Virus record (IMG/VR): IMGVR_UViG_3300023223_000669
Coordinates: 119,101 to 183,100 of that record
From: a virus
Reading direction: 5' to 3' (one strand)
DNA length: 64,000 nt
Shown here: positions 12,469 to 61,513 of the stretch, piece by piece
Numbering within the stretch: the stretch's first letter is position 1
Layout: each line of letters begins with the position of its first letter
Notes under the pieces: generated by a model
The model's database searches: none
What the model was told of the DNA's origin: nothing
Seen by the model: the letters and a program-made list of their open reading frames with translations, nothing else
Made by a program: the position numbers and the translations under genes

Positions 12469-13547
12469 AAGCTCTAACGTTTGATGATATCTCTCTTGTC
12501 CCGCGATACAACAACATTGCTTCGCGGAACGACGTAGACACCAACGTACAGTTTGGGGGTCTCAAATTGAAAATTCCTGTGTTTTCAGCCAATATGGAGA
12601 CTGTAACTGGTGCTACAATGGCTGATAAAATGTCACAACTTGGTGGCCTTGGGTTTCTTCATAGATTTTGTTCTATTGAAGATAATGTTTCTATGTACCT
12701 TGATGCTACGCCCGGTAAAGGAATATCAAAACGAGACCACCTAGTACAAGGCACTGAAGCTGTAGTGTCACTCGGTATCAATGAGGGACTTGAGCGTTTC
12801 CATGCTCACTATGAGGTAGGTGCTCGCTACTTCTGTGTTGATATTGCACATGGTCACAGTCAGTTGGTTGGACGTATTATTCAACAGATCAAAGAATTCA
12901 GCGATGACACGTTTGTCATCGCTGGGAACGTCTGTCACGCTGCCGGGGCTGAATACCTTGCAGACAAGGGTGCTGATGCGGTAAAAGTTGGTGTCGGCCC
13001 CGGAAGCGTATGCACCACACGCATCAAAACCGGTTTCGGTGTGCCACAGTTTTCGGCAATCAAAGCTTGTCGAAGAATCAATGTCTTTGTCATTGCTGAT
13101 GGTGGTATACGGCATCCGGGGGATGCCGTAAAAGCATTTGTGGCGGGTGCAGATGCCATCATGTTAGGCGGCATGCTTGCCGGGTGCGACGAAACCCCTG
13201 GTGAAATTCAGCATGAAACTATTACGCTTGGTGGTACTTACCATGATCATAAGTTCAATGTCAAAAACTCGGGATACAAAGTATTCCGAGGCATGGCTTC
13301 CAAGGAAGCTCAGGATGATTTCATGGGCAAAATGAGCGGCTGGAAAACGTCCGAAGGCGTAGAGATTAAGATTGAGGCTAAAGGGCCTGTTGTGAACGTA
13401 GTGAACGATCTCATGGGCGGTATTCGTAGTGGTATGACTTATGTTGGAGCCAATAGACTGAAGGAACTACGAGAGCGAGCAGACTGGGTAGAAGTTACTG
13501 CTGCTGGCCGAACAGAAGGTAGCCCGCATGGCGAAGGGAGACTATGA
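12465..13547 (+). CDS. IMP dehydrogenase/GMP reductase family enzyme
   Basis: 360-residue TIM-barrel enzyme without CBS domains. The start (LTFDDISLVPRYN) and the catalytic loop GVGPGSVCTTR (Cys183) identify the family. GPGSVCTTR, YKVFRGMASKEAQ and GGIRSGMTYVGA favour GMP reductase; the C-terminal EVTAAGRTEGSPHGEG recalls IMP dehydrogenase. The reaction is therefore either IMP to XMP or GMP to IMP. Either would tune guanine nucleotides, relevant to the GDP-sugar genes downstream. Contains two strong hairpins (12899-12924, 13108-13130). Confidence 0.88.
   Translation: MKALTFDDISLVPRYNNIASRNDVDTNVQFGGLKLKIPVFSANMETVTGATMADKMSQLGGLGFLHRFCSIEDNVSMYLDATPGKGISKRDHLVQGTEAVVSLGINEGLERFHAHYEVGARYFCVDIAHGHSQLVGRIIQQIKEFSDDTFVIAGNVCHAAGAEYLADKGADAVKVGVGPGSVCTTRIKTGFGVPQFSAIKACRRINVFVIADGGIRHPGDAVKAFVAGADAIMLGGMLAGCDETPGEIQHETITLGGTYHDHKFNVKNSGYKVFRGMASKEAQDDFMGKMSGWKTSEGVEIKIEAKGPVVNVVNDLMGGIRSGMTYVGANRLKELRERADWVEVTAAGRTEGSPHGEGRL
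12899..12924. repeat. Perfect intragenic hairpin, 11-bp stem
   Basis: Stem CAGCGATGACA, loop CGTT, inside the IMPDH/GMPR-like gene. No following T-run. Confidence 0.65.
13108..13130. repeat. Perfect intragenic hairpin, 10-bp stem
   Basis: Stem TACGGCATCC, loop GGG, in the same gene as the hairpin at 12899, about 185 bases downstream. No T-run. Confidence 0.65.
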
Positions 13548-39045: not shown

Positions 39046-39681
39046 ATGAAACATCAGCATCAAGACATTTTTGCGGACGTTAATAATAAATCTTGTTACT
39101 GGGCAGGGTTTATTGCAGCAGATGGATGTTTGAAACCCCGAAATGGAGTTCTATCTATTGGTCTTTCTAGCAAAGATAAACAGCATTTGATAAAATTCCG
39201 TCAAGCTTTAGCTTGTACTAATCCCATAACATACAGATTAAATAATGGTTATGGCCGTAACGATTTACAGGTGACTGCTGCAAATGATCTTATTAAATCA
39301 CTCGGTCTGAATTTCAACATTACGCCACGTAAAAGCTTGATATTACAACCACCTAGATTGATTCTCGAAAATTATGTACGTGCCTTCGTTCGTGGTTATA
39401 TGGATGGTGATGGATATATTTCTCAATACGGTGGCAAAAATCGACCCAATACATATATTGGCTTTGCTGGTACACGAGAAGTATTACAATGGATTAAAGA
39501 AAAAATCCAACAGTGTGTTGATGTAGGTAATCCATCTGTTTACAAACATAAAAATTGTAATGTACATCAGTTGATTTTCGGTGGTAGGCAGGCGGAACGA
39601 ATTTTAGATTGGCTCTATATCGACTCCACTCAATCTACTCGTCTTGATCGTAAGTATGTCAAATACGAGGAGATCACCTAA
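39046..39681 (+). CDS. LAGLIDADG homing endonuclease
   Basis: 211 residues with two motif copies: SCYWAGFIAADGCLKP (about 16-31) and FVRGYMDGDGYISQ (about 110-123), so it should act as a monomer. Start immediately follows the previous stop. It lies between two virion genes and looks AT-rich. Free-standing rather than inside an intron, as far as the flanking frames show. Confidence 0.92.
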   Translation: MKHQHQDIFADVNNKSCYWAGFIAADGCLKPRNGVLSIGLSSKDKQHLIKFRQALACTNPITYRLNNGYGRNDLQVTAANDLIKSLGLNFNITPRKSLILQPPRLILENYVRAFVRGYMDGDGYISQYGGKNRPNTYIGFAGTREVLQWIKEKIQQCVDVGNPSVYKHKNCNVHQLIFGGRQAERILDWLYIDSTQSTRLDRKYVKYEEIT

Positions 39682-58349: not shown

Positions 58350-58512
58350 GAGGTTGTTCAGCAGGAGGTTGAACGTGACTGATTTGGTTGAGACGGACCC
58401 ACATACTAATCACCATTTTAGCGGGCATACCCACTTCACATTGCGATAGGGCTATCATCAAGCAACGAGCCTCGTCGCCACTTAGTTCGACATTGGGTTG
58501 TTCTGTAGGCAT
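58342..58512 (-). CDS. Small protein, 56 residues
   Basis: Translated from ATG 58512 to TAA at 58342: starts MPTEQPNVELSGDEARCLMI and ends with VQPPAEQPHE. It bridges an otherwise gene-free 130-base stretch, overlaps the next ATG by eight bases and has AAGGA about nine bases upstream. It overlaps the kinase 3' end by 31 bases. Function unknown. Confidence 0.55.
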   Translation of the reverse strand: MPTEQPNVELSGDEARCLMIALSQCEVGMPAKMVISMWVRLNQISHVQPPAEQPHE

Positions 58513-59204
58513 TCTAGCAATCCTTGTTGCCGTAGTAGGTTACGCATGAAATCGCGAAGTTCATCAATTGTACCTTCGTTAGAGTAGAAAACATCAAACG
58601 TTACATCATCCAGGATGGTTTCGCTCGTATGGTTGTCCATGAGTCCGGTGTCGCGTGTAATGCGAACCACGAGGCCATTCTGTTCCTCGGTGATTCTCTT
58701 TTCATTGGGGAAGCGACAGTCAGTGATCAACACTACATCATACTCGCTCCAATCACGACGGAAGGGCGAGTTAGCCCATATGTCTTGTTCAAACATTTCG
58801 CGGAAAATATCTGTCCCCATGACTTGCAGGACTTCTCGAATTGTCATGGGACCAGAACGAAGCATGGGTACCATGTGTTGTCCCATAAGAGGATCTAATG
58901 ACACACTTTCTTCCCGTTTTTCTATCGAATATTTAAAGCGAATCTCTTCTGGAAAGTTATCCCATATAATATGGGTCAGTGTCTCTTTGTCCTCGTTAGA
59001 TCCATACACGAGGTCTCTATCGAGACCGAGTACGTCGATTGCTATGTTTTTGAGGACTTCTGCAAATGCAGTTACACCAACTCTCTTGCCGGCTGTTTGC
59101 AGCATGTCTATAGCCATACCCGCAGCGGTGTCTTTCCCGGTTTGCTTCTTACCAGATAGTGAGATGAAAACAGGATGGGGGTGTTGATTTGGCTGGTCAA
59201 CCAT
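58482..59204 (-). CDS. Deoxynucleoside monophosphate kinase-like protein
   Basis: 240 residues from ATG 59204, the position set by the promoter. Walker A SLSGKKQTGKDTAAGMAI (16-33), then LKNIAIDVLGLDRD, and TIREVLQVMGTDIFREMF, a hallmark of T4 gp1-like dNMP kinases; late VLITDCRFPNEKRI. Converts dNMPs to dNDPs, supplying DNA synthesis with ThyX and RNR products. A longer in-frame start at 59267 would contain the promoter and is unlikely. Confidence 0.87.
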   Translation of the reverse strand: MVDQPNQHPHPVFISLSGKKQTGKDTAAGMAIDMLQTAGKRVGVTAFAEVLKNIAIDVLGLDRDLVYGSNEDKETLTHIIWDNFPEEIRFKYSIEKREESVSLDPLMGQHMVPMLRSGPMTIREVLQVMGTDIFREMFEQDIWANSPFRRDWSEYDVVLITDCRFPNEKRITEEQNGLVVRITRDTGLMDNHTSETILDDVTFDVFYSNEGTIDELRDFMRNLLRQQGLLECLQNNPMSN

Positions 59205-59210
59205 ACCTAC

Positions 59211-59239
59211 ATTATACGTTCCCGTTGCCGATTTGTCAA
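59211..59239 (-). promoter_or_regulatory. Consensus sigma70 promoter, leaderless arrangement
   Basis: On the - strand: TTGACA (59239-59234), exactly 17 bases, TATAAT (59216-59211), then six bases (GTAGGT) to the ATG at 59204. Both boxes are perfect, and +1 should be the A of ATG. Lies in the 113-base gap between the deoxyribosyltransferase and kinase genes; nothing else is seen in that gap. Confidence 0.9.
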
Positions 59240-59317
59240 CGGAAACGTAGGAAAAGTTATCCTTCATGGGGAACTCTCAGAAAATGCTACGAGCGTGGGG
59301 ATGCCCTATAGGAAGAT

Positions 59318-60307
59318 TTAGTAGTCGGCTAAAATAGCCTTAACAATTTCAATTCCCTCACAAATGGTAGGAACTACGAATCCACTACATTCGCGAATCA
59401 TAGCATGATTATGCTGATTACCAATAGGCGGAGGAGGTTCTTGATAAACTACAATAGCACCAGGATTATACGTTGCACGGAATCGCTCATAGATTTCTGC
59501 TTGTTGCTGGCTCTCTTTTTTTGTTTTTAGAGCAAAGCCGCGTTTACCTTTTTGATGATTTCTGCCACGTCCTTTGGTTGCTCGTGCCATTTCAATGACA
59601 GTCGCGGCCCTTGATTGTTTTTCGATCAATCGCGGCCAAATGTCTCGTAGAATAGATGCAGCTTCTTGACCAGCCGCTTGCCAAATGTGTCGCGTTTTGT
59701 TTACACGTTTATCAAACGTTGACATCACGGCACCTAAGTTACTTACTTCTGCAAGACGATCGATTACTGCTTTGCAGTTCATTTCAACTCGAACCTGAGG
59801 TTTGTATGTATAGTTTCCAGATTTGAGTTTATTTTTTTTAATATCTATATGACCTTCGCCATCGACAATTCCAGCGAACCATCCCCTTTCTTCAAAAGGG
59901 ATGACCGGCCAAGATTCTTCTTCCATCACCAACACAATTGGGCGTCGTTTGCTATCAGCCCAGGCAATTTCCATAATGGTTCCTATGGAGAGTTTCTTTG
60001 CTCCCAATAGGTTTACGAAAAGGACGGTACAATTCATGCAATCAAATCGATCTCGTGTTGTGATGCCACGTTGGTTACTCATGGCTTTGACATAAGATGC
60101 GATATCCTCTTGCGTCTCTGTCGCTGGGGATGCCTGATCGATCCTATCGCCTTGCATTTCTCGAATATATACCTTGTTCCTAATAGGCGATAAAGCCCTG
60201 ATGCCGACCTCGCGAAGCTCTATCGTAACTTTATCACGCCACGATGTAGCCTCACTATATGTGAGCCCGCTGATCGTTCCTGCTAGGTAGACTGTCTTAT
60301 GTACCAT
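59318..60307 (-). CDS. Nucleoside 2-deoxyribosyltransferase-like protein interrupted by an in-frame LAGLIDADG domain
   Basis: 329 residues in one uninterrupted frame. Residues 1-130 (VYLAGTISGLTYSEATSWRD ... GTIMEIAWADSKRRPIVLV) are the deoxyribosyltransferase N-part with the catalytic Glu in GTIMEIAWA; residues 297-329 (NQHNHAMIRECSGFVVPT ...) are its C-terminal end. Between them about 165 residues form a LAGLIDADG endonuclease (RGWFAGIVDGEGHIDIKK, then CKAVIDRLAEVSNLG and WPRLIEKQSRAATVIEM). No intein splicing blocks are visible. Function of the mature product depends on whether the insert is removed. Confidence 0.85.
   Translation of the reverse strand: MVHKTVYLAGTISGLTYSEATSWRDKVTIELREVGIRALSPIRNKVYIREMQGDRIDQASPATETQEDIASYVKAMSNQRGITTRDRFDCMNCTVLFVNLLGAKKLSIGTIMEIAWADSKRRPIVLVMEEESWPVIPFEERGWFAGIVDGEGHIDIKKNKLKSGNYTYKPQVRVEMNCKAVIDRLAEVSNLGAVMSTFDKRVNKTRHIWQAAGQEAASILRDIWPRLIEKQSRAATVIEMARATKGRGRNHQKGKRGFALKTKKESQQQAEIYERFRATYNPGAIVVYQEPPPPIGNQHNHAMIRECSGFVVPTICEGIEIVKAILADY
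59420..59917 (-). mobile_element. In-frame LAGLIDADG insertion
   Basis: Approximate extent of the inserted endonuclease segment, residues about 131-296 of the host protein. A near-perfect inverted repeat (ATCCCCTTT ... AAAAGGGAT, 59881-59902) sits close to its 5' side. Boundaries are estimated from where deoxyribosyltransferase similarity stops and resumes. Confidence 0.6.
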
Positions 60308-61513
60308 TCAGGCGACCTCCACGGTAGCCTCGTCCTTCACTTGCTGTAAAACAAGTTTCCAAATCTTATCTTCAATGTCTTTGTTATCGAGTAGTGCGAA
60401 CACGAAACCGCATTCAGTATTCTCAACGTATTCTTGTACCCAAAGTGCATATGCTTTTCGCGGTTGGTTTTCACCAACCACATGCTTCATTGTATTGAGA
60501 CTGCCGTATGCTCTTGCGTAGAGATTATCGTACATGCCCTGTACGTGAGCACGTACATCATCAAAATCGCAGGCTATTGCCTTCGGAAGTTGCTTCACCG
60601 TGGCCCCGTATTCTGAGCCACGAATCAACTCTACCACGCCCTTCGGGCTTAGATAATTGAGGAGCCTGTGAATCCTAAGGTACGTTGGGCTCTTAATCTT
60701 CACTCGTAGGCCGCTTTCGAAACGAGCTACATATCCCTCGCTGTTCTCATCGAACGGAATCTCGCCGCGTAGATCAATATCATATCTACGAGGACGGCGG
60801 AACCCACAAAGCTCTGCAATTTGATCTACGCGGCGAGGGTGCCACTCAACTCCGTTGTGATCGAAAATCGCCAGCAATACCAAGAATGTCTCACCTTTGT
60901 AGTCAACTACAATGCGATTTTCGGGGTAGATGATTTCGAAGACCGGAGTGCAGTCCAGCGGCAGAGCCGCTAGATTGTAACGCTTATCGACCCAGAACAA
61001 TGGATCGAGTTCCTCGGATCCGGCCGTATAGATGGTTTCGTTTAGGATACGAGTGCCCTCAAGAGCCTGATCTGATTCCATACTACCCGGCGTAGCTAGA
61101 CGCCATTCATATCGACATGGATCGATTGGCCCAGCGTTGAAGACCGCTTCAACTACTGAATCATCATGTTCGATTCTACCTTGTGGCTCTAGACATACGA
61201 GTTTTCTGTAACCGATACCACACGAGCCATCCATCTTTTCAAAGACCTCGACGCCCTCCGACCACGGTAGGGCGTCGGGCATAGTCTCCGCACGTTCGTT
61301 CAAGTTGAAGAACTTGGGGAACGGGCGAGCTACGACAGTACCGTCCGCAGCAAAAATAATCCCGCGAGCCAGTCGGTTCACGTCATTCCACTCATCTTTG
61401 ATGTGAGTGTCCTGAGTATATTTGAAGATAGTAAGCGACCCCGACTGGCTCGCAAGCACGCGGCCAGCTTCTACCTCTTTCCAAAGTTTGTTAAGTAGAA
61501 TTGGGTCCTTCAT
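60308..61513 (-). CDS. RNA ligase (T4 Rnl1-like)
   Basis: 401 residues. Motif I EKMDGSCGIGYR with nucleotidyl Lys93; FEIIYPENRIVVDY (motif III/IIIa region), SEGYVARFESGLRVKIKSP (motifs IV and V). Joins RNA 5'-phosphate and 3'-OH ends with ATP, typically to repair tRNAs cut by host nucleases. No polynucleotide kinase was seen in the window. Ends one base before the next gene's start. Confidence 0.9.
   Translation of the reverse strand: MKDPILLNKLWKEVEAGRVLASQSGSLTIFKYTQDTHIKDEWNDVNRLARGIIFAADGTVVARPFPKFFNLNERAETMPDALPWSEGVEVFEKMDGSCGIGYRKLVCLEPQGRIEHDDSVVEAVFNAGPIDPCRYEWRLATPGSMESDQALEGTRILNETIYTAGSEELDPLFWVDKRYNLAALPLDCTPVFEIIYPENRIVVDYKGETFLVLLAIFDHNGVEWHPRRVDQIAELCGFRRPRRYDIDLRGEIPFDENSEGYVARFESGLRVKIKSPTYLRIHRLLNYLSPKGVVELIRGSEYGATVKQLPKAIACDFDDVRAHVQGMYDNLYARAYGSLNTMKHVVGENQPRKAYALWVQEYVENTECGFVFALLDNKDIEDKIWKLVLQQVKDEATVEVA

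Follow-up and report, generated by a model that had tools for sequence, protein, structure and literature searches.

A probable unspliced, in-frame LAGLIDADG homing-endonuclease insertion in a nucleoside deoxyribosyltransferase-superfamily gene of a likely bacterial virus

Homing endonucleases are usually described as freestanding between genes or as residents of a self-splicing intron or intein. The locus studied here raises the question of how a LAGLIDADG endonuclease comes to be read in frame inside an enzyme gene. The window, that is, the whole 64,000-nucleotide stretch analysed, is the last 64 kb of a 183,100-bp virus record, and because homologues occur in phages of bacteria, the virus is likely a phage of bacteria. 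A minus-strand frame of 329 aa, open at exactly 59318-60307, begins with the N-part of an enzyme of the nucleoside deoxyribosyltransferase (NDT) superfamily, continues as a whole single-motif LAGLIDADG endonuclease and finishes with an NDT C-end, and this fused protein is the single match of its kind in the whole record. A preliminary description made from the sequence had recognised the same three-part frame, which Pfam, PHROG and homologue alignment now bear out, and offered three explanations, namely an intron with an in-frame ORF, a splicing-defective mini-insert or a tolerated domain insertion. In this study, we provide evidence that the last of these is probably correct, and that the gene carries an unspliced, tolerated homing-endonuclease domain; the other two are disfavoured. 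The features of the locus are as follows.

59318..60307, minus strand: whole fused ORF, NDT N-part, LAGLIDADG endonuclease and NDT C-end, 329 aa
59912..60307, minus strand: NDT-superfamily N-part, codons 1-132 (Pfam PF05014/PF15891; 63% identity to the uninterrupted homologue L105; conserved columns)
59423..59911, minus strand: insert of 489 nt read in the host frame, codons 133-295, each limit good to +/- 3 codons (homologue comparison)
59474..59896, minus strand: folded single-motif LAGLIDADG endonuclease, codons 138-278 (phrog_5046, alignment, AlphaFold, Foldseek)
59852..59881, minus strand: LAGLIDADG motif WFAGIVDGEG, codons 143-152, acidic residues intact (sequence, alignment)
59417..59458, minus strand: flexible linker leading back to the NDT, rich in proline around YQEPPPPIGN, codons 284-297 (AlphaFold pLDDT below 50)
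59321..59422, minus strand: NDT C-end, codons 296-329, GNQHNHAMIRECSGF...AILADY (76% identity to the L105 C-end; element order)
59880..59903, no strand assigned: hairpin with a 10-bp stem, noted in the preliminary description and judged incidental
58482..59267, minus strand: downstream deoxynucleotide monophosphate kinase, synteny marker (Pfam DNMK, E 2e-15)
60308..61513, minus strand: upstream T4-Rnl1-type RNA ligase, synteny marker (Pfam RNA_lig_T4_1, E 7e-15)

The host gene belongs to the NDT superfamily (NDT / MilB / DNPH1) by fold, catalytic Glu and motifs. Pfam places NDT at residues 4-131 of the fused protein (E about 2e-5), an uninterrupted relative matches PF05014 above the cutoff, and the AlphaFold model of the uninterrupted L105 (pLDDT 89) matched solved NDT, MilB and DNPH1 structures in Foldseek, while NCBIfam gave no match to the fused protein. 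The N-part holds Y7, R85 D86 and the catalytic-type Glu E113 in SIGTIMEIAWAD, and the enzyme may be either a transferase or an N-glycosidase. Of the 30 alignment columns with a family conservation of 90% or more, the window protein keeps 29, including E113 and the H-x-H-x-M of the C-end; the sole departure is P11T, at the family-invariant proline of YLAGPI (codon 11, window 60275-60277). As P11T is the only such departure, the NDT parts show no general decay, although this substitution could mean relaxed constraint on the enzyme.

The limits of the insert were fixed by alignment to uninterrupted deoxyribosyltransferases, a check that the preliminary description had proposed. About 70 homologues, drawn from viral contigs, bacterial and archaeal genome contigs and phage records, were read, and the insert is absent in all of them, five of which (L105, L103, L064, L071 and L080) have RNA ligase, dNMP kinase and exonuclease neighbours in the order of the window. 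In these proteins GNxHxHxM, or something very near it, comes after the strand PIVxxME, usually with a few residues between the two. L105 is the nearest homologue (63% identity over the N-part and 76% over the C-end). The protein of L071 reads ...MEE-S-GN-LHDHAM, which leaves E130-S132 of the window on the host side, and DNA comparison, chiefly with L071 (ATG GAA GAA TCT GGC AAT), puts the insert between S132 and G296. The insert thus measures 489 nt, or 163 codons, and keeps the reading frame at either junction, the limits being known to within about 3 codons; its existence had been seen before, but the earlier limits of about 131-296 are refined to about codons 133-295. It lies in the loop before the conserved N-x-H-x-H-x-M segment, in agreement with the earlier remark that it adjoins a conserved active-site segment, and both the H-x-H-x-M after it and 29 of the 30 conserved columns have been kept. 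In the L105 model this point falls in the loop that connects strand 126-129 to helix 140-145, and the model of the fused protein keeps the L105 element order around the insert, with a strand at 124-127 followed by helix 302-307, strand 310-312 and helix 315-327. Homologues L049 and L002 carry natural extensions of about 12 aa at the same site and L081 one of about 20 aa; since loop length varies naturally among homologues, sequence comparison indicates that the loop is length-tolerant. A target-site duplication was sought at the insert junctions and none was found. Just downstream of the insert, at 59396-59410, a perfect 6-3-6 palindrome, AATCAT-AGC-ATGATT, occupies the conserved H-A-M-I codons and is a possible candidate target for a homodimeric endonuclease. 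In another NDT homologue, at L019:2001-2627, a variable loop of the N-part holds a different insert, in frame and about 55 aa long, perhaps SH3-like, MEHPYPVGTRVQVAGPDGGEG...

The insert encodes a complete endonuclease of the single-motif, I-CreI-like class (phrog_5046). PHROG phrog_5046 covers residues 140-260 (E 1e-17), and Pfam LAGLIDADG_1 matches residues 145-192 at E 0.005, below the Pfam cutoff. The class is defined by one LAGLIDADG helix with an acidic residue followed by an alpha-beta-beta-alpha-beta-beta-alpha core, and AlphaFold, run on the fused protein with a 23-row alignment, predicted this canonical fold (helix 138-151, then E E H E E H H) with pLDDT 87-97 over most of the domain, below 50 in the linker 284-297, and with modest overall confidence (pTM 0.52). 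The best solved matches in Foldseek were the homodimeric I-CvuI, I-MsoI and I-CreI (E 2e-7 to 3e-7; against I-CreI, TMt 0.74 and rmsd 2.1 over 150 columns), which share the fold and the single-motif homodimeric class but are encoded in group I introns and are only about 15% identical to the window endonuclease. The domain is complete through its C-terminal helix, ERFRATYNPG, equivalent to the LNxRG of freestanding relatives. These freestanding phage LAGLIDADG proteins (phrog_5046-like; L118-L197, from Arthrobacter, Microbacterium and Streptomyces phages) share the domain and motif, are mostly 110-250 aa long and end in many cases in the LNxRG helix, but they have their own start and stop codons and lie between genes. 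The relatives were gathered with an alignment query, whereas a single-sequence search of viral contigs gave none; endonuclease and NDT rows were aligned together after trimming and with fewer NDT rows, so as to avoid a false 'LAG' match onto the NDT part. Of the 80 relative loci, about 76 were read, and in none of these does a host gene clearly continue in frame on either side of the endonuclease. An NDT adjoins a LAGLIDADG gene in Arthrobacter and Microbacterium phages, and this was considered as a target link, but it was set aside, those NDTs being shorter, differently built relatives. By analogy with its class, the insert-encoded enzyme would cleave DNA at a specific site and home.

Is the insert removed by splicing? 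An in-frame, LAGLIDADG-bearing insertion at a conserved site is compatible with an intein, but the absence of intein blocks reported in the preliminary description holds up: the sequence contains no HINT blocks A, B, F or G, no N-terminal Cys or Ser and no C-terminal HN-Cys/Ser/Thr, and no intein splicing family matched in Pfam or NCBIfam. About ten residues precede the LAGLIDADG helix and just the linker follows the endonuclease; the first residue of the insert is W or E, and its end reads PI/GN with no HN-C/S/T junction. The complete endonuclease has no HINT segment on either side, which also argues against the splicing-defective mini-insert suggested earlier, and we regard an intein or a decayed mini-intein as extremely unlikely. 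An intron of group I, or of another self-splicing type, with its ORF in frame with both exons might seem plausible, as group I introns often encode LAGLIDADG endonucleases, the site of insertion is conserved, and phage group I introns such as T4 td can fall below the Rfam gathering threshold. A search of the whole window at that threshold found no intron, but it also misses the T4 td and nrdB introns and is therefore not informative. In E-value mode, the T4 td intron (a positive control for group I only) was found at E 2e-8, so that the lack of any group I or group II match at E<=10 over 59000-60600, the covariance-model search that had been proposed for group I cores, is informative. The insert shows neither the conserved P3-P9 ribozyme core of a group I intron nor the Domain V together with a reverse transcriptase or DI-DVI of a group II intron, and it is without a reverse transcriptase. 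The endonuclease fold occupies 423 of the 489 nt, leaving about 66 nt, and hence no room for a ribozyme; the folding energy of the insert RNA is ordinary against shuffles (z -1.4), there are no stop codons, and on the insert's coding strand every frame other than the host's is closed. An in-frame intron is thus very unlikely, and we infer that the insert is not spliced. The inverted repeat noticed previously does exist, at 59880-59903, where a 10-bp stem closes a loop of 4 nt (-12.7 kcal/mol, z -2.5), but it is unremarkable: the minus strand of the window has about 20 hairpins of comparable quality, and we judge it incidental. It was rejected as an archaeal-type splice motif, a bypass signal or a terminator, as it lies wholly inside the coding insert, similar hairpins are common, and the virus, given its homologues in phages of bacteria, is itself likely a phage of bacteria.

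Composition bears on the origin of the insert. Its GC3 is 0.295 against 0.466 in the NDT N-part; for the freestanding endonuclease genes of the window the value is 0.24-0.38 in 12 of 13 cases and 0.46 in one, and for the other window genes 0.33-0.56. This fits an insert that came in recently and from the pool that also supplied the window's other endonuclease genes, composition being an indication rather than proof. No second phage with this insert was found among the homologues gathered, so the case for mobility rests on composition and on presence or absence in fairly distant relatives (50-67% identity). The NDT C-end (59321-59422, 33 codons) has a GC3 of 0.303, near the insert and unlike the N-part at 0.466, and was possibly co-converted together with the insert, the sample being small. 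Between 13544 and 63839, the window contains at least 13 freestanding endonuclease-like ORFs lying between genes, nearly all of low GC3 (0.24-0.38), with HNH_3 confirmed at 13544 and 63126 and LAGLIDADG_3 at 39046, the rest being assigned by eye.

Taken as a tolerated domain insertion, the locus probably arose when a phrog_5046-type, I-CreI-like endonuclease gene entered the length-tolerant NDT loop in frame, losing its own start and stop codons and bringing no splicing apparatus alongside. Transcript and protein would then most likely remain whole, giving one fused 329-aa polypeptide in which the endonuclease would fold as a separate domain hung on the NDT loop through the flexible proline-rich linker, and the NDT part could still reach its native fold and presumably keep its activity. 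When a second phage infects the same cell, a LAGLIDADG dimer would recognise and cut its NDT allele that lacks the insert, and the insert would be copied in by repair.

Two other accounts were weighed. The endonuclease may have killed the NDT, the gene surviving solely as a carrier while its NDT parts decay. An insertion near the presumed active site could disable the enzyme; it adjoins the conserved C-end segment, P11T sits at a family-invariant position, and the 183-kb record, which may be a fragment, holds no second NDT to protect the phage. However, every other conserved NDT column is intact, the linker is long and flexible, and the frame runs through the insert to a normal C-terminus, whereas a carrier-only gene would be expected to stop at the endonuclease's own stop codon, and this account therefore seems unlikely. 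Separate release of the endonuclease, through internal initiation or proteolysis of the linker, draws on an in-frame GTG TTG GTG ATG at codons 125-128, a few codons before the endonuclease, and on the disordered linker 284-297, which could be cleaved. No ribosome-binding site is apparent in the sequence before codons 125-128, and a product begun there would still carry the NDT C-end; we consider such release quite improbable.

The tolerated insertion has a published precedent. In the reports from the Gogarten group, DNA methylases of F-cluster mycobacteriophages carry a solitary LAGLIDADG domain, and neither an intein nor an intron was detected with it; the endonuclease of Taj_79 forms a separate domain in the AlphaFold model, from which an unspliced protein and an active host enzyme were inferred, and the insert is common to nine methylases and apparently vertically inherited (PMC9957025, PMC11855218). 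Within the methylase sequence of Taj_79, LAGLIDADG_1 covers residues 63-160 and phrog_5046 residues 62-189; the similarity to the window endonuclease is weak but real (24%, E 2e-4), and Foldseek independently returned the Mantra methylase. A tblastn search with the Taj endonuclease gave 17 records, all annotated as methylase or methyltransferase save one Mantra record labelled hypothetical. Three of them are the Rhodobacter phages RcMrWorf, RcAqua and RcAquaphina, and in the one read the LAGLIDADG_1 domain is in frame inside the methylase, as in the window, but in another host gene and with an endonuclease 36% identical to that of Taj. In both Taj_79 and the window, a phage enzyme gene holds a single-motif phrog_5046 LAGLIDADG in its own frame and next to a conserved motif, and no intein or intron was detected. 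They differ in the host, an N6/N4 DNA methylase of mycobacterial phages against a much smaller NDT, and in that the Taj_79 type is known from nine published methylases and the window insert is so far single. The ShiLan domain (PMC11855218) is likewise an insertion in a phage enzyme with no stops and no detectable intein or intron that carries a homing endonuclease, but that endonuclease is an HNH enzyme out of frame, whereas ours is read in the host frame; a hidden out-of-frame ORF of the ShiLan kind was looked for and is absent from the insert's coding strand. By its in-frame LAGLIDADG in a phage enzyme, its uninterrupted homologues and the lack of any splicing element found, the window insert is of the same kind as Taj_79's. 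There is a very slim chance that both are removed from RNA or protein by a splicing mechanism too small or too different for models of introns and inteins to recognise, in which case they would represent a new kind of self-removing element.

Members of the same endonuclease family occur in other arrangements. In Gordonia phages SchottB and Nordenberg (L199, L200), an insert of 275 aa that resembles an intein, CLTDPDTPIE...VHN-C, interrupts the MuF minor capsid protein, and a LAGLIDADG ORF (phrog_5046, E 2e-15) runs antisense, wholly nested inside it (in L199, 1836-2660 on the minus strand and 1929-2549 on the plus strand); matches to this arrangement also appear in Barsten, Lennon, Sitar and Thing3. 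The family is thus found freestanding, in frame in enzymes and antisense inside an intein.

The window shows the same arrangement as Taj_79 in a new, unrelated host enzyme, an example of a rare kind with published precedent. An unspliced in-frame insertion would be a third route for homing endonucleases, documented in the literature found for phage DNA methylases only, where the explanations offered are inferential. The second host enzyme is small, at about 165 aa; its empty allele is clear, its loop is tolerant and it has syntenic relatives, so that one can test whether an enzyme interrupted by a homing endonuclease can keep it as a tolerated domain.
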